Shown: piece after piece, positions 42,603 to 51,137 of the stretch
How positions within the stretch are numbered: the first letter of the stretch is position 1
Layout of the letters: every line of letters begins with the position of its first letter
From: Mariniphaga sp.
GTDB lineage: Bacteria > Bacteroidota > Bacteroidia > Bacteroidales > Prolixibacteraceae
Direction: 5' to 3'
Length of the DNA stretch: 64,000 bases
Assembly: GCA_024636975.1 (NCBI GenBank)
Contig: JAGXGA010000017.1
Coordinates: 186,001-250,000, forward strand
Notes under the pieces: model-generated
What the model was told of the DNA's origin: nothing
What the model saw: the letters and a program-made list of their open reading frames with translations, nothing else
Database searches by the model: none
Made by a program: the position numbers and the translations under genes

Positions 42603-43667
42603 TTAGTTTTCCTCAATCCATGCAGCAATCCAGTCGCCTACTTCCGAAGTTTTATAAGGCTTTTCTTTAGAAATGTCTTCAGTTACAATTCCTTTTTCAA
42701 GGGAAGCATTCACTGCATTGCGGATGATTTTTCCCTCAAGTGGCAGGTTAAATGCATATTCAAACATCATAGCGGCGGAAAGAATTGTTGCCACCGGGTT
42801 GGCAATATTTTTTCCGGCTGCCTGCGGATAGGAGCCATGTATAGGTTCGAACACCGAGGTATGGATACCTATTGAAGCAGAAGGCAATAATCCCAGTGAA
42901 CCTGTGATGACGCTGGCCTCGTCGGTTAAAATGTCTCCGAACATATTTTCAGTTACCATCACGTCAAAGTTTTTGGGCCACTGTATAATTTGCATGGCTG
43001 CATTGTCAACAAACATATACTCCGTTTGGATGTCAGGGTAATTCGGTGCCATTTCCTGTGCAATCTCCCTCCATAACCTCGAAGTCTCAAGCACGTTGGC
43101 CTTATCAACCACGGTAAGTTTTTTCCGGCGCTGAGCTGCAAACTCGTAGGCCAGTTTAAGGATACGTTCAATTTCTGCACGGGTGTAGGTGTTTGTATCG
43201 AAAGCAGTATTGCCGTTATCTTTTCGTCCCTTTTCTCCAAAATAGATTCCCCCGGTAAGTTCACGGATGCACACAAAATTCGCTCCTTCTACAAGTTCGC
43301 GGCGCAGTGGTGATTTATGCAGCAGCGATTCAAACGTCTCTACCGGTCTGATATTGGCATAAAGCCCCAGCTTTTTCCGCATGGCCAGCAAGCCCTGCTC
43401 AGGACGTACCGTTGCCTTGGGATTATTATCGAACTTCGGGTCACCAATAGCGCCAAACAGAACAGCGTCTGAATTCATGCACAGCTGGTGGGTTTCTTCC
43501 GGATAAGGCTCCCCAACCTTGTCGATAGCAGTCGCACCAGTCAGGGCATAGTCATATTCCAGCTGGTGATTATATTTTTTTGCTACGGCTTGTACGGTTT
43601 TCATGGCCTGTTCGATTATTTCAGGACCTATCCCGTCGCCGGGAAGAATGGCAATTTTAAGATTCAT
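42603..43667 (-). CDS. leuB: 3-isopropylmalate dehydrogenase
   Basis: A 354-residue NAD+-dependent decarboxylating dehydrogenase, third step of leucine synthesis; related enzymes in such operons may also accept 3-methylmalate for isoleucine. Key features are [25 protein letters not shown] and [17 protein letters not shown]. The ATG at 43667 begins MNLKIAIL; an in-frame TTG at 43685 would add six residues and is less likely. It is the last gene of the leu operon, followed by a terminator. Confidence 0.95.
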
Positions 43668-43800
43668 ATTTTTTATCGATTTCAAATATTAGTTTAAACT
43701 GAGAATTCAATTTTGATTTACAGGTTCAATACCAGCCTTTTTGCTTTGGCTTCAATTAACCCAAATTATTTCTATTTAATCTCTGTATCCGGCAGCAGCC

Positions 43801-45384
43801 TTATGATATTCCGCTAAGAATTTTATCCATCAGTCCGGGTTTAAATTCATTTTCAATAATGTTCAGCATTCTTATTGTTGCTTTTATGGCTGCAGCATTC
43901 TGGTCGGGATCGAGACCTTTGGTTTTGAACTCGCGGCTGTTCTTCCAGGTAATAACAGTCTCCACCAATGCATCGGTTTTTCCGCCAGGTGGAATGGTTA
44001 CAACATAGTCAATCAATTTAGGAAATGATTTGCCCATCCCTTTGTATATTTTGCGCAGGGCTTTCATGAATGCATCGTATTGTCCGTCGCCGTCGCTGAA
44101 TTCCTCATGAATTGTGCCTTCGATTTCAAGACTTACACTGGCTACAGGCCGGAGCCCCATTGTATGGCTGACAGAAAAATTGACTACCCTGATTTTCTGC
44201 TCCATGATGTCGTTTTCCAACACATCGGCAACAATGTAGGGAAGTTCGTCGGAGGTAACTGTCTCCTTTTTATCACCCAGTTCAATGATTCGCTGGGTCA
44301 CTTTTTTCAATGATTCGGCATCGAGTTCAATGCCCAGATCCTCAAGGTTCTTTTTAATGTTGGCCTTGCCTGATGTTTTTCCAAGTGCATATTGTCTGAT
44401 CCGGCCAAACCGTTCAGGCAGCAGGTCGTTGAAGTACAGATTGTTTTTATTATCGCCATCAGCGTGGATGCCGCTGCACTGGGTAAATACGAATTCCCCG
44501 ATGAGTGGTTTATTGGTAGGAATACGGATTCCTGAAAATGATTCCACCAGTTTCGACACCTTGTTCAACTGGGATTCGTTGACATTGGTTTTCATCTTCA
44601 GGTGATCCTTTATGGTAGCAACCACACTCGACAGAGGTGCATTGCCAGCCCGTTCGCCCAGCCCGTTTACGGTTGTATGGACACACCTCATGCCGGCCTT
44701 TATGGCATGAAATACATTGGCAATTGCAAGGTCGTAATCGTTGTGCGCATGGTAATCGAATTCCACTTCCGGGTAGGCTTCAATCATTTCCCTGCAAAAA
44801 TCATACGTTTCATCCGGATCAAGTATTCCCAGCGTATCGGGCAGCATAATGCGGTCAACCTTTTCCTTGCTCAGGTTCTTTATCATGAAATGGACATACT
44901 CCCTTGAATTGCGCATTCCGTTCGACCAGTCTTCAAGATAAACATTTACCCTGATTCCCATTTGTTGGGCAGTATCAATAACCTTTTTAATATCAGCCAG
45001 GTGCTCGGAGGGTGTTTTCCGCAACTGCTCAGAAACATGTTTCAAAGACCCCTTGCAAAGCAGGTTCACAACTTTACCTCCTGCATCGGCGATCCATTTA
45101 AGCGAAATGTTGCCGTCGACAAAGCCCAAAACTTCAACTTTTTCGAGGTGCCCTTTCTCTGCTGCCCAGCGAAATACACGCTGTGCTCCTTTGAATTCAC
45201 CTTCCGATACCCGTGCTGATGCAATTTCGATACGGTCGACACGTACATCTTCAAGCAATACTTTGGCTACACTTAGCTTTTCGCCTTCACTGAATGAAAC
45301 ACCTGTGGTCTGTTCCCCGTCACGAAGGGTAGTATCCATTATGGTGAGTCTTTTTCCTTCTATTTCAACTAGCTTACCTGTCAT
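43801..45384 (-). CDS. cimA: Citramalate synthase-like (alpha-isopropylmalate synthase family)
   Basis: A 527-residue HMGL-like acyltransferase with a C-terminal LeuA-dimer regulatory domain. The catalytic domain shows [45 protein letters not shown] and a CSGIHADG metal/His region. It differs from the LeuA in the same operon (for example THCHNDLG there versus YHAHNDYD here). In Bacteroidetes the second enzyme of this type is taken to be (R)-citramalate synthase, making 2-ketobutyrate precursors for isoleucine from pyruvate and acetyl-CoA. The symbol is inferred from this context. Confidence 0.75.
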   Translation of the reverse strand: MTGKLVEIEGKRLTIMDTTLRDGEQTTGVSFSEGEKLSVAKVLLEDVRVDRIEIASARVSEGEFKGAQRVFRWAAEKGHLEKVEVLGFVDGNISLKWIADAGGKVVNLLCKGSLKHVSEQLRKTPSEHLADIKKVIDTAQQMGIRVNVYLEDWSNGMRNSREYVHFMIKNLSKEKVDRIMLPDTLGILDPDETYDFCREMIEAYPEVEFDYHAHNDYDLAIANVFHAIKAGMRCVHTTVNGLGERAGNAPLSSVVATIKDHLKMKTNVNESQLNKVSKLVESFSGIRIPTNKPLIGEFVFTQCSGIHADGDNKNNLYFNDLLPERFGRIRQYALGKTSGKANIKKNLEDLGIELDAESLKKVTQRIIELGDKKETVTSDELPYIVADVLENDIMEQKIRVVNFSVSHTMGLRPVASVSLEIEGTIHEEFSDGDGQYDAFMKALRKIYKGMGKSFPKLIDYVVTIPPGGKTDALVETVITWKNSREFKTKGLDPDQNAAAIKATIRMLNIIENEFKPGLMDKILSGIS

Positions 45385-45466: not shown

Positions 45467-46057
45467 TTACTTTCCTTCTTCAAAGGCGGTAATTTCCTCC
45501 TTCAAGGCTACCAGGTAATCGATGTCGTCGAGCCCGTTTTTAAGGCAATGCTTTTTATACGGATTGATTTCGAATGTTTCCGATTCACCGGTTTTTAAAA
45601 TGGTGAAGGTTTGATTTTCAAGGTTTGCTTCAAATTGTGCTGCAGGATTTTTTTCAATTTCCTGAAAAATCTTTTCCAAAAATTCAGGAGAAACAATTAC
45701 AGGCAGCAATCCGTTGTTCAGGGCATTGTTCCTGAAAATATCGGCAAAAAAGCTTGAAACCACTACACGGAAGCCATAATCGTAAAGCGCCCAAATGGCA
45801 TGTTCGCGGCTGGACCCGCTTCCGAAGTTTTTTCCTGCCACCAGAACTTTTCCTGAATAGGAAGAGTTGTTCAGCGGAAAGTCGGTTTTTGGCGTTCCGT
45901 CTTTATTGTAACGCCAGTCGCGAAACAAATTATCACCAAAGCCTTTTCGTTCAACAGCCTTTAAATAACGGGCCGGTATTATCTGATCGGTATCAACATT
46001 TTCTACCGGCAGGGGTACTGCCGGAGAGGTAATTTTTGAAAATTTATCGTATGCCAT
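45467..46057 (-). CDS. leuD: 3-isopropylmalate dehydratase small subunit
   Basis: A 196-residue subunit of isopropylmalate isomerase (with LeuC). [35 protein letters not shown] and [18 protein letters not shown] are the family hallmarks; the SSREH loop contacts substrate. It lies between leuC (30 bp upstream) and the citramalate synthase-like gene. Confidence 0.97.
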
Positions 46058-46087: not shown

Positions 46088-47488
46088 CTACATCATATCC
46101 CTGGGGTCAGTAATAGTCCCGGTAATGGCTGCAGCCGCAGCAGTGAGAGGGCTTGCCAGCATAGTTCTGGCGCCGGGGCCCTGCCGTCCTTCAAAATTCC
46201 TGTTGGAAGTAGAAACAGCATATTTACCATCCGGAATCTTATCTTCATTCATAGCCAGGCAGGCAGAACATCCGGGCTGCCGGAGCTGAAATCCTGCAGC
46301 TTCAAGGATTTTATCAAGGCCTTCATTTCTGATTTGCTTTTCAACCTTCTGAGACCCGGGTACGAGCCAGGCAGTAACGCCGGGCGCTTTTTCCTTTCCT
46401 TTTACAAAACCTGCAAATGCCCTGAAATCTTCTATCCGGCCATTGGTACAGCTGCCAACAAATACATAATCAACCTGTTTACCTATCATGGAATCTCCTT
46501 CGGTGTATCCCATGTATTGGAGCGATTTCAAAAAGGTACTTTTGTCGCTTCCACTCATACCGTTTACCTTAGGTATATTTTGTGTAATTCCAATTCCCAT
46601 TCCCGGGTTAGTACCATAGGTAATCATCGGTTCGATATCAGCAGCATCAAATGTATATTCCGTATCGAAAACCGCTTCTTCATCACTTTTGAGTTCTTTC
46701 CACGCTGAAACGGCTTTTTCCCAGTCGGCACCTTTTGGAGCATACTGACGGCCTTTAACATAGTTGATTGTAGTTTCATCGGGAGCAATCATTCCACCCC
46801 GGGCTCCGCTTTCAATGCTCAGGTTACACAGAGTCATCCTGCCTTCCATGCTCAGGCTTGTAATTGCCTGCCCAGCATATTCAATAAAATGACCCGTGCC
46901 GCCACTTGTTGAAATTTGAGAAATAATATAAAGGGCAATGTCTTTGGCTGTCACACCCTTTTTCAATTCGCCGTTGACGGTTATACGCATTTTTTTGGGC
47001 TTGGGCTGCATAATGCACTGACTTGCCAGTACCATTTCCACCTCGCTTGTACCTATACCGAATGCAATGGCGCCAAAAGCTCCGTGGGTGGAGGTATGGC
47101 TGTCGCCACAAACAATTGTCAGCCCCGGCTGGGTCAGTCCAAGTTCCGGCCCTATAATATGCACAATTCCGTGTCCATCCGACTGAAGATCATGGTATTT
47201 TATGTTGTGCTCTTCACAATTTCGCTTCAGCATGTCCACCTGGTGCCGCGAGAGCTCATCCATAATGGTTAGGTGCTGGTTTTCGGTAGGAACGTTATGA
47301 TCGGGAGTGGCAGTAGTCTGGTCCGGCCTGAAAACTTTTAACCCGCGGGTTTTAAGACCCAGGAAAGCAACAGGACTTGTTACTTCATGTATCAGGTGGC
47401 GGTCGATGTACAAAACTGCAGGGCCGCCCTCGACCTGCTTCACCGCATGGGCATCCCAAATTTTATCAAACAATGTATTTGCTTCCAT
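46088..47488 (-). CDS. leuC: 3-isopropylmalate dehydratase large subunit
   Basis: A 466-residue aconitase-family protein binding a [4Fe-4S] cluster. The cluster cysteines are in VGSCTNGR (~346) and [10 protein letters not shown] (~408-411). Other hallmarks are [15 protein letters not shown] and the C-terminal [21 protein letters not shown]. It converts 2-isopropylmalate to 3-isopropylmalate with LeuD; in organisms with citramalate synthase the same isomerase also acts on citramalate. Confidence 0.97.
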
Positions 47489-47550: not shown

Positions 47551-49053
47551 TCAACCCACCGGCAATTTATTTACTGAGTCGAGGAAAGCTTCCACCGATG
47601 CAGTTACAATGTCGGTATGCGCACCAAATCCGTGATAGATTGAATCGTTGTATTCAATCTGCATATGAACTTTCCCAATGTCATCGCTTCCGCGTGTAAT
47701 GGCCTGTACCAGGAATTCTTCAATGGTAACCTGGCGATGAATGATTTGTTTAACAGCTTTAATTGCGGCATCTACAGGGCCATTGCCTGATGAGGTGGCA
47801 TCAAATTTTTCTCCTGCAATATCAAGCCTCACAATTGCCATAGGGGTCAGGCCTTTTCCTGTAACCACCTGCAGGAAGTCAAGTTTTATCCTTCGCTCCT
47901 GACGTGTAGCATCGCCAACCAAAAGAGCGATATCGTCATCGCGTATGTCTTTTTTCTTATCGGCAAGTTTCAGGAATTCCTCATATACTTCATCCAGCTT
48001 TTCCTTGTTGAGTTCGAATCCCATAAGCTCCATTCTGTGCTTCAATGCTGCGCGTCCGCTACGGGCAGTAAGCAGAATAGCCGATTCATTAATACCCACA
48101 TCGGTTGGATCCATGATTTCATAATTTTCCCGGTTTTTCAGCACACCATCCTGGTGTATTCCGGAAGAATGCGCAAAGGCATTACGACCCACAACCGCTT
48201 TATTTGGCTGGACAGGCATATTCATCAGTCGTGAGACCAACCTGCTGGTATTGTATATGTTTTTTGTATTGATTCCGGTTTCAATTCCCAGCGCCTGGTA
48301 CCTGCTTTTAAGGGTCATTACTACCTCCTCAAGCGAGGTATTGCCGGCACGTTCACCTATACCATTTATGGTAACTTCTGCTTGCCGGGCGCCATTCATA
48401 ATTCCCGAAATGGTATTGGCTGTAGCCATTCCCAAGTCGTTGTGACAGTGTGTGGCAATGGTGGCTTTATGAATTCCATTTACATTTTCGACAAGGTATT
48501 TGATTTTTTCTCCGAATTCATTCGGGAGACAGTACCCGGTGGTATCGGGAATATTAACCACAGTGGCTCCGGCTTTAATAACGGCCTCGATCACTTTGGC
48601 AAGGTATTCATTTTCGGTACGCCCGGCATCTTCAGCATAAAACTCTACATCCTCAACATATTTCTTTGCATATTTCACAGCTTCAACCGCCCGTTCAATA
48701 ATAGCATCGGGATTTGAATTCAGCTTGTAGTGAATGTGGAAATAAGAAGTACCGATTCCGGTATGAATCCGGCCTTTCTTTGCATATTTTAGTGACTCAG
48801 CAGCTACATCTATATCTTTTTGAACTGCCCGTGTCAGGGCACAAATGGTTGGCCATGAAACAGCTTTTGAAATTTCAACTACCGATTCGAAATCACCGGG
48901 GCTGGAAATGGGAAATCCTGCCTCGATAACATCCACACCTAGTTCCTGCAACGCTTTGGCTACTTCAATTTTTTCAACTGTGTTCAACTGGCATCCCGGA
49001 ACCTGTTCGCCATCGCGGAGGGTGGTGTCGAAAATGTAAAGTTTATCACTCAT
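47551..49053 (-). CDS. leuA: 2-isopropylmalate synthase
   Basis: A 500-residue enzyme condensing acetyl-CoA with 2-ketoisovalerate, the committed step of leucine synthesis. The HMGL catalytic domain shows [29 protein letters not shown] and [14 protein letters not shown]. The C-terminal ~380-500 region is the LeuA dimer domain for leucine feedback. First structural gene of the operon, 64 bp after an attenuator terminator. Confidence 0.97.
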
Positions 49054-49117: not shown

Positions 49118-49149
49118 AAAAAAGCCATTCTCTTTTATGAGAATGGCTT
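49118..49149 (-). terminator. Attenuator terminator upstream of leuA
   Basis: On the minus strand AAGCCATTCTC pairs with GAGAATGGCTT (49149-49139 and 49132-49122, 11 bp, perfect) with a six-base loop, followed by a T run. It lies ~60 bp before leuA and cannot be the end of an upstream gene, since the only thing before it is the leader peptide. It is an intrinsic terminator placed for attenuation. Confidence 0.85.
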
Positions 49150-49179
49150 AAAATTTATTCTTGTATTATTAACAACAAA

Positions 49180-49187
49180 CCATTCTC
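49180..49187 (-). promoter_or_regulatory. Antiterminator arm overlapping the leader stop codon
   Basis: The minus-strand sequence GAGAATGGTTT (49187-49177) can pair with AAGCCATTCTC of the terminator's 5' arm (11 bp with one G-U pair). It overlaps the UGA of the leader peptide (49188-49186), so a ribosome finishing the leader would cover it and let the terminator form. Confidence 0.7.
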
Positions 49188-49257
49188 ATTTCTTCTGAAT
49201 TAGAAGAATAATGCCAATAATAAGGCTAAGAATAGATGTGTTGTTTAAATTATTCAT
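49186..49257 (-). CDS. Leucine/isoleucine operon leader peptide (23 aa)
   Basis: An ATG-initiated frame of 23 codons plus TGA, too short for routine gene calling. It encodes five leucines (TTA, three CTT, CTA) and six isoleucines (all ATT), concentrated in codons 9-20. The stop codon overlaps the antiterminator arm and lies ~37 nt before the terminator hairpin. Such a layout is a ribosome-mediated attenuator: starvation for Leu or Ile stalls the ribosome on these codons, exposes the antiterminator and permits leuA transcription. The presence of isoleucine codons suits an operon that also holds a citramalate synthase-like gene. Confidence 0.75.
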   Translation of the reverse strand: MNNLNNTSILSLIIGIILLIQKK

Positions 49258-49279: not shown

Positions 49280-49314
49280 CAAATATTACACATTTTTTTT
49301 AAAATGAGAACAAA
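49280..49314 (-). promoter_or_regulatory. Candidate promoter of the leu operon leader
   Basis: On the minus strand TTTG (49314-49311) is followed after 23 bp by AATATTTG (49287-49280), one mismatch from TAnnTTTG. Transcription would start about 15 bp before the leader peptide ATG. The spacing equals that of the dnaX promoter candidate. Confidence 0.4.
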
Positions 49315-49406: not shown

Positions 49407-50978
49407 TTATTGCCTTCCTGCCGGTAATGTGAAAGCAGCATCAGGGAGCGGTGGCTCAGGTTTGGGTTGTGGGGCAGCATCCTTAATTCGGAAAACGTCG
49501 TATTTTGAAAGGGGCCGCTGGTCGATTTTCCAGTCGAAATTACTAAGTTTTTTTTCTTCTTCCGTAAGGCTGAACAGTGGTTTCAGCAACCCTTCCGGTG
49601 CCTGCAAAAAGGAGATTCTAAAAATGTCTCCATCTTTGAAACGAATTGAAATCTTGCTGCTTTCAACCCGGTTTAAACCTATGATATCCTCGTCCTGCCT
49701 TGCATAATAAAGGGTCTGTCCGTTACCATTAACATCTATCTTATTCAGTTCATTATTCACGACGTACCCCACCATTTCTTTACCTTTTATCTGATCAAAC
49801 CGTCCGGAATCGAGTTTGGATATAATAAACCCGTTATTGGTCAGGTGCAGTTCATCGGGAGCATCGGTTTTTTGTTTCATCTCAATGTGATCGGCTGTTA
49901 GCTGATGATTATCGGACCAGATTACAGGATTGTTAAACAGTTGCACTACTGAGTCTTTAGTGAAATATATCAAAGAGTCGCACATTCCCTGCATGTCGGA
50001 TCTAAAGAAACGTGTTCCATAATATGCCATAATAAGTTTCTCATCGGGGATGGTATCGGGAATTGTACGCAGGGTATCGGCATGCAGAAACAAAGTGTCT
50101 TTTTCAGAATAGATCATGAGCAAAGCCGAGTCGGTTACTGTTGCAATTTCCATCTGATCGTTATAGTTGGCAGTATTTCCCATAACGATCATTTTGTTTT
50201 CAATATCTTCCATTCTTACATTGTCCAACGCTCTTCCCTGTCCATCGGCTTCGTTGTATTTAATGTAATTGGCTTTAAGGTGCTGAGTTTTATTGTAAAC
50301 TGAAGGATTTTTAATGAGTTCGGCTTCCCCCGATTCAGTTTCGTACCAGCCTTCTTCAGCATACAGGGTATTCAATGAATCTTTTATAGTAGTGGGCCCA
50401 ACAATAAATACGCGACCTGTGTTGGTGTTGTACATCAGGGTGTCACTGTTCAGTGTAAAATTTTCATTGAATGCTTCCACATCGCCGTAAAAATGGATGA
50501 TGTCGGTTTCAGTATAATATCGACCTTCCCTGCTGGTCAGGGTGTTTAAACTGTCTACTATTTTTCCACCGTGCTCATAATAGCCAACTTTGGTATTCAA
50601 GTCATAATCAAGTGTATCGGTATACAGTGTGGTGGTTTTATTAATCAGCCTTACATTTTGAAATGCATTCGCACGGTTTATATCGCCGTTGTACAATACT
50701 TTTCGGGCATAAAGGTCAAGGGTGTCGCCCTGATTTATACGTACATTGCCAAAAGCATCCACGCGGTTATTACCCGTATAGGTATATGCACTGTCGGCCC
50801 ACATCAATACCTCTTCATGCCGTATGCGCACATCTCCTATGAGGCGTTGTGCTCCGGGTGCAATTTTTTCATCGGATTCCCAGTATTCGGCCTGTTCAAT
50901 AACGATCCGCTTTCTTTGCTGAGAATAACCGGTTATTGAAAAGAATACCAGCAGGCTCAGCAACATTAAACGAAACAT
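49407..50978 (-). CDS. OstA-like protein (LptA/LptD N-terminal type)
   Basis: A 523-residue exported protein. The ATG at 50978 gives a signal peptide (MFRLMLLSLLVFFSITGYSQ); the longer frame begins at TTG and lacks one. The mature part is made of beta-jellyroll OstA repeats (RLIGDVRIRHEEVLMWADSA, NRVDAFGNVRI, IIHFYGDVEAFNENFTLNSDT, GRVFIVGPTTIKDS), as in LptA. In Bacteroidetes this OstA-like protein is inferred to carry lipopolysaccharide across the periplasm. It lies in a cluster of outer-membrane biogenesis genes. Confidence 0.85.
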   Translation of the reverse strand: MFRLMLLSLLVFFSITGYSQQRKRIVIEQAEYWESDEKIAPGAQRLIGDVRIRHEEVLMWADSAYTYTGNNRVDAFGNVRINQGDTLDLYARKVLYNGDINRANAFQNVRLINKTTTLYTDTLDYDLNTKVGYYEHGGKIVDSLNTLTSREGRYYTETDIIHFYGDVEAFNENFTLNSDTLMYNTNTGRVFIVGPTTIKDSLNTLYAEEGWYETESGEAELIKNPSVYNKTQHLKANYIKYNEADGQGRALDNVRMEDIENKMIVMGNTANYNDQMEIATVTDSALLMIYSEKDTLFLHADTLRTIPDTIPDEKLIMAYYGTRFFRSDMQGMCDSLIYFTKDSVVQLFNNPVIWSDNHQLTADHIEMKQKTDAPDELHLTNNGFIISKLDSGRFDQIKGKEMVGYVVNNELNKIDVNGNGQTLYYARQDEDIIGLNRVESSKISIRFKDGDIFRISFLQAPEGLLKPLFSLTEEEKKLSNFDWKIDQRPLSKYDVFRIKDAAPQPKPEPPLPDAAFTLPAGRQ

Positions 50979-51137
50979 ACGGGCATTGAATTGTACCAGC
51001 CGGAACAGTTGAAACAACCATCCGGAAGCATTGCAGTAAATGATATGTTCCCTGTGTATCCTCAATCTTCAATTTAATTTTGAAAATTCCAATAAAATTC
51101 GTAGTTCTGGTATAGGGTAGTTTATGCAGAAGCTTAA

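Follow-up and report, generated by a model that had tools for sequence, protein, structure and literature searches.

What controls the leuA gene cluster of this Mariniphaga genome, and to which amino acids would that control respond? The window—the whole 64,000-nucleotide stretch of DNA that was analyzed—contains, by sequence and fold, a Leu/Ile-rich leader open reading frame (ORF), a terminator before leuA, an antiterminator that excludes this terminator, and the control-codon placement of an attenuator. We consider it very likely that these elements form a ribosome-mediated transcription attenuator of the classical kind, which would act on the presumed leuA-leuC-leuD-cimA-leuB operon and sense whether leucine tRNAs and isoleucine tRNAs are charged.

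The leu genes and their leader region

All genes and elements described here are on the minus strand. The first gene, leuA (47551..49053), encodes 2-isopropylmalate synthase (NF002086, 743 bits; TIGR00973, 685 bits; both above cut-off), and is followed by leuC (46088..47488; TIGR00170, 659 bits, above cut-off) and leuD (45467..46057; TIGR00171, 197 bits, above cut-off). Next is a cimA-like gene (43801..45384) whose 527-aa product is a probable (R)-citramalate synthase by family and structure similarity. Its best family is the Leptospira citramalate synthase NF042433, at 677 bits and below that family's cut-off of 950, with LeuA models reaching at most 343 bits; its nearest solved structure is likewise a Leptospira citramalate synthase (3BLE, 417 bits, versus 156 for the best isopropylmalate synthase). 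The gene thus probably encodes the citramalate synthase of the pyruvate route to isoleucine. The last gene of the presumed single operon is a leuB-like ORF (42603..43685), presumably a 3-isopropylmalate dehydrogenase by its context, which served as the leuB query. Threonine ammonia-lyase, IlvA, is also encoded in the genome (TIGR02079, 626 bits); citramalate therefore need not be the sole source of isoleucine, and the idea that it is the only route here was dropped.

Read 5' to 3', the region upstream of leuA comprises a promoter-like box, a 23-codon ORF, arm 2, the terminator, and then leuA itself at 49053. The −7-like box TAATATTTG (49280..49288), with its TTTG starting 26 nt before the leader ATG, is one base longer than the Bacteroidota promoter consensus, TAnnTTTG. 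A scan for sigma-70-type promoters returned one minus-strand site, at 49433-49406, and none beside the leader. The leader ORF MNNLNNTSILSLIIGIILLIQKK (49186..49257) runs from an ATG at 49257 to a TGA ending at 49186, and 11 of its 23 codons specify leucine (codons 4, 10, 12, 18, and 19) or isoleucine (codons 9, 13, 14, 16, 17, and 20); valine is absent. The first two bases of the antiterminator arm, arm 2 (GAGAATGGTTT, 49177..49187), are shared with the leader stop codon. Arm 3 (AAGCCATTCTC, 49139..49149) is common to the antiterminator and to the intrinsic terminator (49118..49149), which consists of arm 3, a 6-nt loop, arm 4 (GAGAATGGCTT, 49132-49122), and the T-run TTTT. None of the 4227 families of Rfam 15 reached its gathering score anywhere in the window, the best sub-threshold scores at this region being 32.2 bits for PyrR (cut-off 54) and 23.9 bits for Phe_leader (cut-off 55).

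Competing secondary structures

Arms 2 and 3 can form an 11-bp helix that includes one G-U pair and can be lengthened to 14 bp, and a 66-nt stretch containing both arms and ending before arm 4 is predicted to fold as 2:3 at −15.4 kcal/mol. The terminator stem is perfect over its 11 bp (−16.8 kcal/mol, z −5.3, equaled by 0 of 200 shuffles). A third pairing is suggested by the minimum-energy fold of the 88-nt leader, in which codons 8–10 pair with arm 2 (−24 kcal/mol, z −4.9, 0 of 200 shuffles). These codons contain the protector core of segment 1 (CTATTCTT, 49228..49235), which is nearly a copy of the arm 3 core CCATTCTC, so that both would compete for arm 2; in this sequence the pairing is lengthened by AACAACA (49245-49239) with TGTTGTT (49177-49171). 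The 1:2 helix would thereby likely complete the classical 1:2 / 2:3 / 3:4 set.

A preliminary description of the region had reported the 23-codon leader with its five leucine and six isoleucine codons, the overlap of its stop codon with an arm able to pair over 11 bp with one wobble, and the perfect 11-bp intrinsic terminator before leuA. On re-reading, all of these proved exact; what it had overlooked were the likely 1:2 pairing, the promoter-like box, and a sister attenuator before ilvD in the same genome.

Recurrence among relatives

The architecture was sought by a scan that made no use of sequence identity and required a terminator, an arm upstream of it that could compete by pairing over at least 7 bp, and an ATG-initiated ORF (from at least 9 to about 45 codons) stopping near that arm. 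The scan was widened once, to stops up to 6 nt past the arm, after the ilvD leader of this same genome proved to have been missed. Within the 64-kb window, on both strands, its one match was the leuA leader. Among 197 deduplicated leuA loci (of 222 with a LeuA match; 2.35 Mb per strand), it found 119 matches on the leuA strand versus 7 on the opposite strand, and 102 versus 1 when at least 38% of residues were Leu, Ile, or Val. The leuA leader switch is not peculiar to this genome: the leader, the overlap of stop codon and arm, and both pairings recur before leuA in relatives, which is where the preliminary description had proposed to look for them.

Recurrence varies with relatedness. Under a first, stricter rule, and among loci lacking upstream ilv genes, a leader preceded leuA in 54 of 61 loci with LeuA at least 78% identical, in 20 of 61 at 72–78%, and in 3 of 31 at 60–72%; where ilv genes lay upstream and the sequence reached at least 6 kb in that direction, a distal leader was found in 8/8, 4/8, and 4/10 loci of these same classes. 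The automatic rules miss leaders, in that five of seven leaderless loci inspected (L150, L154, L231, L232, L119, L130, and L122, among ten order-level loci picked by hand) show an ORF that resembles a leader and is at least 30% Leu+Ile+Val. A match with at least 38% Leu+Ile+Val occurs in 5 of 53 loci from outside the order (L233–L235, L249, and L278), and the trait is therefore mainly the order's, as far as the scan sees. Many LeuA proteins from outside the order (many of L242–L285) match the query over residues 1 to about 380 only. These proteins appear to lack the C-terminal part, and attenuators were mostly not found by the scan at such loci.

Fifty-two leaders were aligned, all belonging to loci whose LeuA is at least 78% identical. 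The 2:3 helix is paired in 466 of 467 cells (35–56% when the arms are slid) and the 3:4 helix in 515 of 520 (41–60% when slid), percentages that, like the overlap of stop and arm, are partly built in, since rows were chosen by a scan demanding a terminator, an arm, and a nearby stop. The pattern of change is not built in by the scan: arms 2 and 4 vary almost solely from A to G, keeping their pairing with U, and arm 3 carries CCATTCTC in 51 of the 52 rows. The exception, L090, has CCATTCTT there, and its arm 2 has AAGAGTGG, which makes this a double change. Any change in arm 3 needs an answer in two places, and its near-fixity therefore fits two mutually exclusive helices that share it. The same near-fixity leaves a covariation test with little power, and compensatory change in 2:3 is scant—one double change, reached in 6 of 500 shuffles—so that compensatory change was rejected as proof of the antiterminator. 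Of the covariation that the preliminary description had proposed to test, the kept pairing of 2:3 and 3:4 is present, and compensatory substitution amounts to this one double change. The 1:2 helix is paired in 338 of 403 cells across the 52 rows (84%, versus 46–58% when slid by 1–3 columns), and one of its pairs is held in 26 of 51; its covariation in these rows is no better than in column shuffles (79/500), which makes it likely rather than proven. A second alignment, A2, which was read by eye, comprised 25 of 26 more distant leaders, L190 being left out.

Further observations concern the sequence around the arms. In three loci (L016, L067, and L075), the attenuator is separated from leuA by C-rich sequence that looks like a repeat (CCCCCTCTAAATCTCCCCC...), and the terminator is at about −180 to −250; in two others (L066 and L073), the terminator is likewise distant and C-rich sequence comes after it. 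Arms 2 and 3 of both leu and ilv leaders return to GAGAA(A/T)GG and CC(A/T)TTCTC in different operons; CCTTTCT matches the 3' tail of Bacteroidota 16S rRNA. This recurrence may reflect common ancestry, the constraint imposed by pairing twice, or another cause.

Leader composition and operon content

The 82 unique peptides directly before leuA average 5.2 Leu, 5.1 Ile, and 0.29 Val, with valine absent from 64 and present at least once in 18. The 21 unique leaders that precede combined ilv-leu operons, at more than 3.5 kb from leuA, average 4.05 Leu, 4.8 Ile, and 2.4 Val, and valine is absent from 2 of them. Two or more valines occur in 17 of the 21 ilv-leu leaders versus 5 of the 82 leuA-proximal ones (Fisher 1e-11, kinship not corrected). 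The genome under study has both kinds, as its ilvD operon is preceded by a separate leader, MKLFATYIILVVLVVISSITGEG (3 Leu, 4 Ile, 4 Val), and terminator (L223:1284-1410). Arm 3 of this sister attenuator, CCTTTCCC, resembles arm 3 of the leu attenuator, CCATTCTC; given this likeness, the leu and ilv attenuators may be paralogs retuned by codon content. Two leader–attenuator units in tandem were also observed in each of four loci (L112, L217, L218, and L220), about 5.3–6.0 kb upstream of leuA and before ilvD; every unit has a peptide of its own that contains Leu, Ile, and Val, as well as a separate competing arm and terminator.

The role of isoleucine was addressed with leaders picked by leucine content alone, to avoid circularity. 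The final Ile-blind rule required at least 18% Leu and a gap of 10–100 nt, the wider gap having been set after L323 was seen by eye to be missed, and loci of families f9 and f26 were added. Loci with ilvD or ilvB less than 6.5 kb upstream, with less than 200 nt of upstream sequence, or with cimA status unknown were left out; for f9 and f26, cimA status was typed by hand from match lists, and cases with cimA on another contig or unclear were likewise left out. Among 119 loci with cimA in the operon, a leader was found in 68 (51 had none by the automatic rule), giving 66 unique peptides that average 5.05 Ile, and all 66 have at least two. Among 84 loci without cimA in the operon, a leader was found in 13, giving 9 unique peptides that average 1.22 Ile, of which 7 have at most one. 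These counts are of genomes rather than independent events, with kinship uncorrected. Leucine content does not differ significantly between the two sets (66 vs 9 leaders; p 0.10). An earlier Ile-blind rule (Leu at least 15%, gap 10–75 nt) had placed leaders with at most one Ile at 0 of 71 unique leaders with cimA versus 4 of 7 without; within family f26 alone, an earlier count (5 vs 1 leaders) was underpowered and not significant (p 0.23).

On a LeuA tree of the 75 leaders, the cimA-less label needs six changes, at least five of them forced. The cimA-less leaders that are isoleucine-poor come from L132, L323, four f9 rows, and L172, and those that keep isoleucine come from L204 and L190. The L172 genome has a cimA-like match elsewhere, so that "without cimA" is to be understood as not in the operon. 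On the same tree, L132, with no Ile and no cimA, stands next to its sister L315, with four Ile and cimA. Arm 2 was detected at the stop codon in 6 of the 9 leaders without cimA (4 of 6 Ile-poor) and in 53 of the 66 with it.

It could be argued that the attenuator senses leucine alone, its isoleucine codons being neutral filler that persists for its AT-richness or hydrophobicity. Leucine is indeed common to leaders with and without cimA (in part because the rule asks for it), L204 and L190 keep isoleucine in the absence of cimA, and leuL of E. coli senses leucine alone. This reading would leave unexplained why all 66 leaders with cimA have at least two isoleucines and 7 of 9 without it have none or one, a difference that extends to the neighbors L132 and L315. 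Nor would neutral filler account for the substitution pattern: Leu and Ile are interchanged at control positions, where V, F, and M substitute much more rarely, and among 30 aligned 23-codon leaders, 28 to 30 have Ile or Leu at codons 13, 14, 16, and 17, the exceptions being a single F, V, and G. We therefore regard sensing of leucine alone as unlikely. Sensing of both amino acids, as the preliminary description had proposed, finds support in sequence: isoleucine tracks cimA, in keeping with the correspondence suggested there between the isoleucine codons and the citramalate synthase-like gene; Leu and Ile interchange; and valine is common mainly where ilv genes follow.

Codon geometry, codon choice, and upstream signals

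Leu and Ile codons are not spread evenly along the leader. For 78 unique leuA-proximal leaders, with distance taken from a codon's first base to arm 2, the share of Leu/Ile codons is 0.07 at 0–5 nt and 0.10 at 6–11 nt, rises to 0.72 at 12–17 nt and 0.91 at 18–23 nt, stays at 0.60–0.80 over 24–47 nt, and is down to 0.02 at 66–71 nt. The scan set the end of the ORF and not the positions of Leu and Ile codons; codon spacing is accordingly an independent result, and nearness of the stop a scan condition. The leading edge of a ribosome is expected about 12 nt ahead of the codon in its A site. The 12-nt step is thus about where expected, and fits a stalled ribosome that would leave arm 2 free. Leucine codon choice also differs from that in leuA of the same loci, with CTA making up 31% of 404 leader Leu codons versus 3% in leuA, and TTG 2% versus 27%.

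These features bear on a second alternative, namely that the ORF encodes a small functional hydrophobic peptide, membrane-embedded or toxin-like, beside which the hairpins are incidental. A 20-residue peptide rich in Leu and Ile does look like a membrane segment. Yet other residues suited to that role are scarce, with means per leader of cimA-bearing operons of 0.28 Val, 0.54 Phe, and 0.46 Ala, and composition follows the pathway of the operon; a peptide selected for hydrophobicity would likewise have little reason to keep its Leu/Ile codons away from arm 2, or to spell leucine with the rare CTA. A functional peptide is, on this evidence, highly improbable.

Upstream of the leader ATG, the motif ATTTGC or TAnnTTTG occurs at 11–55 nt in 71 of 78 unique leaders, versus 3.0 (maximum 7) in mononucleotide shuffles; an SD-like core occurs in 10 of 78. 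That the hairpin is merely an ordinary, non-regulatory terminator of the upstream gene at 49407-51065, which shares its orientation and stops 258 nt short of it, is scarcely credible, as a promoter-like box and a leader lie in between and recur in relatives, and an ordinary terminator needs no competing arm.

Proposed mechanism and implications

The mechanism that best fits these observations is classical attenuation responding to both leucine and isoleucine. A ribosome that finishes the leader would sit on its stop codon and cover arm 2, allowing the 3:4 terminator to form. A ribosome stalled at Leu or Ile codons 9–20 would break segment 1 and leave arm 2 free to form the 2:3 antiterminator, and the operon would be read. 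If the leader is not translated, 1:2 would form, followed by the terminator. Isoleucine is a plausible second signal because the operon carries cimA, so that LeuCD and LeuB would work in the leucine and isoleucine pathways alike. What was observed directly is that the sequence elements exist and recur in relatives, that the control codons are spaced as described, and that leader codons correlate with operon content; an active promoter, translation of the leader, stalling, termination, and transcription as one operon are steps that we infer from sequence.

More broadly, it seems probable that the Bacteroidales possess one widespread family of branched-chain attenuators, with codons tuned to the genes of the operon: leucine alone before leuA without cimA, leucine and isoleucine with cimA, and leucine, isoleucine, and valine with ilv genes, sometimes in tandem. 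The leader in the window would then be the dual Leu+Ile sensor for steps common to two pathways. This series ties the signal to operon content, such that a leader would predict the amino acids sensed. The Bacteroidales include major gut bacteria, and the leuA leader offers a concrete, testable form of control over their branched-chain synthesis. Genes of the Bacteroidota mostly lack Shine–Dalgarno sites; if the leader is an attenuator, then transcription and translation in a phylum poor in such sites would have to be linked closely enough to permit attenuation.

Comparison with known systems

Peptide attenuators, including those for several branched-chain amino acids, are textbook knowledge. 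In E. coli, the leaders of ilvGMEDA (ilvL) and ilvBN (ivbL) each respond to several branched-chain amino acids through one leader. Their counterparts here are the ilvD-type leaders, with Leu, Ile, and Val; the leuA leader of the window lacks valine and stands in a leu-cimA operon. Attenuation of ilvB by several amino acids is referenced in the accessible text of PMC10272879. That text and the accessible part of PMC11109978 describe the ilvB-II uORF motif of Corynebacterium, with an Ile/Leu/Val-rich leader, a terminator, and an antiterminator; this is the same kind of arrangement, differing in phylum and gene. In Staphylococcus aureus, a Leu-rich attenuator peptide governs branched-chain synthesis; its Leu-rich leader is alike, whereas isoleucine there acts via CodY (both per the available portion of PMC5794164). 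Closer in phylogeny, Bacteroides thetaiotaomicron, likewise of the Bacteroidales, has short ORFs in long 5' UTRs reminiscent of attenuation leader peptides, for example at BT_4401 (PMC7366714); the main text of that article, as available, gives no mechanism for them and does not contain the word leuA. Neither Bacteroid nor leuA occurs as a term in the available main text of Naville and Gautheret 2010.

Among the literature matches listed, no Bacteroidota leuA/cimA leader is described, which agrees with the preliminary view that a Leu/Ile version in Bacteroidetes is little described. These matches do not cover Lopatovskaya 2010, a comparative study that may extend to the phylum. The attenuation mechanism itself is known; its Leu+Ile specificity without valine and its distribution in the Bacteroidales are little described in the literature searched.

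A close parallel is leuL of E. coli and Salmonella, in which a leader peptide before leuA, with rare CUA leucine codons, is followed by 1:2 / 2:3 / 3:4 folding and a terminator before leuA. The window shares the leader before leuA, the 2:3 and 3:4 pairings with a likely 1:2 pairing, and the terminator, and the leaders of its kind share CTA-rich leucine codons. Compared by description, leuL senses leucine alone, whereas the leader described here has leucine and isoleucine in near-equal number, tied to the presence of cimA in the operon.
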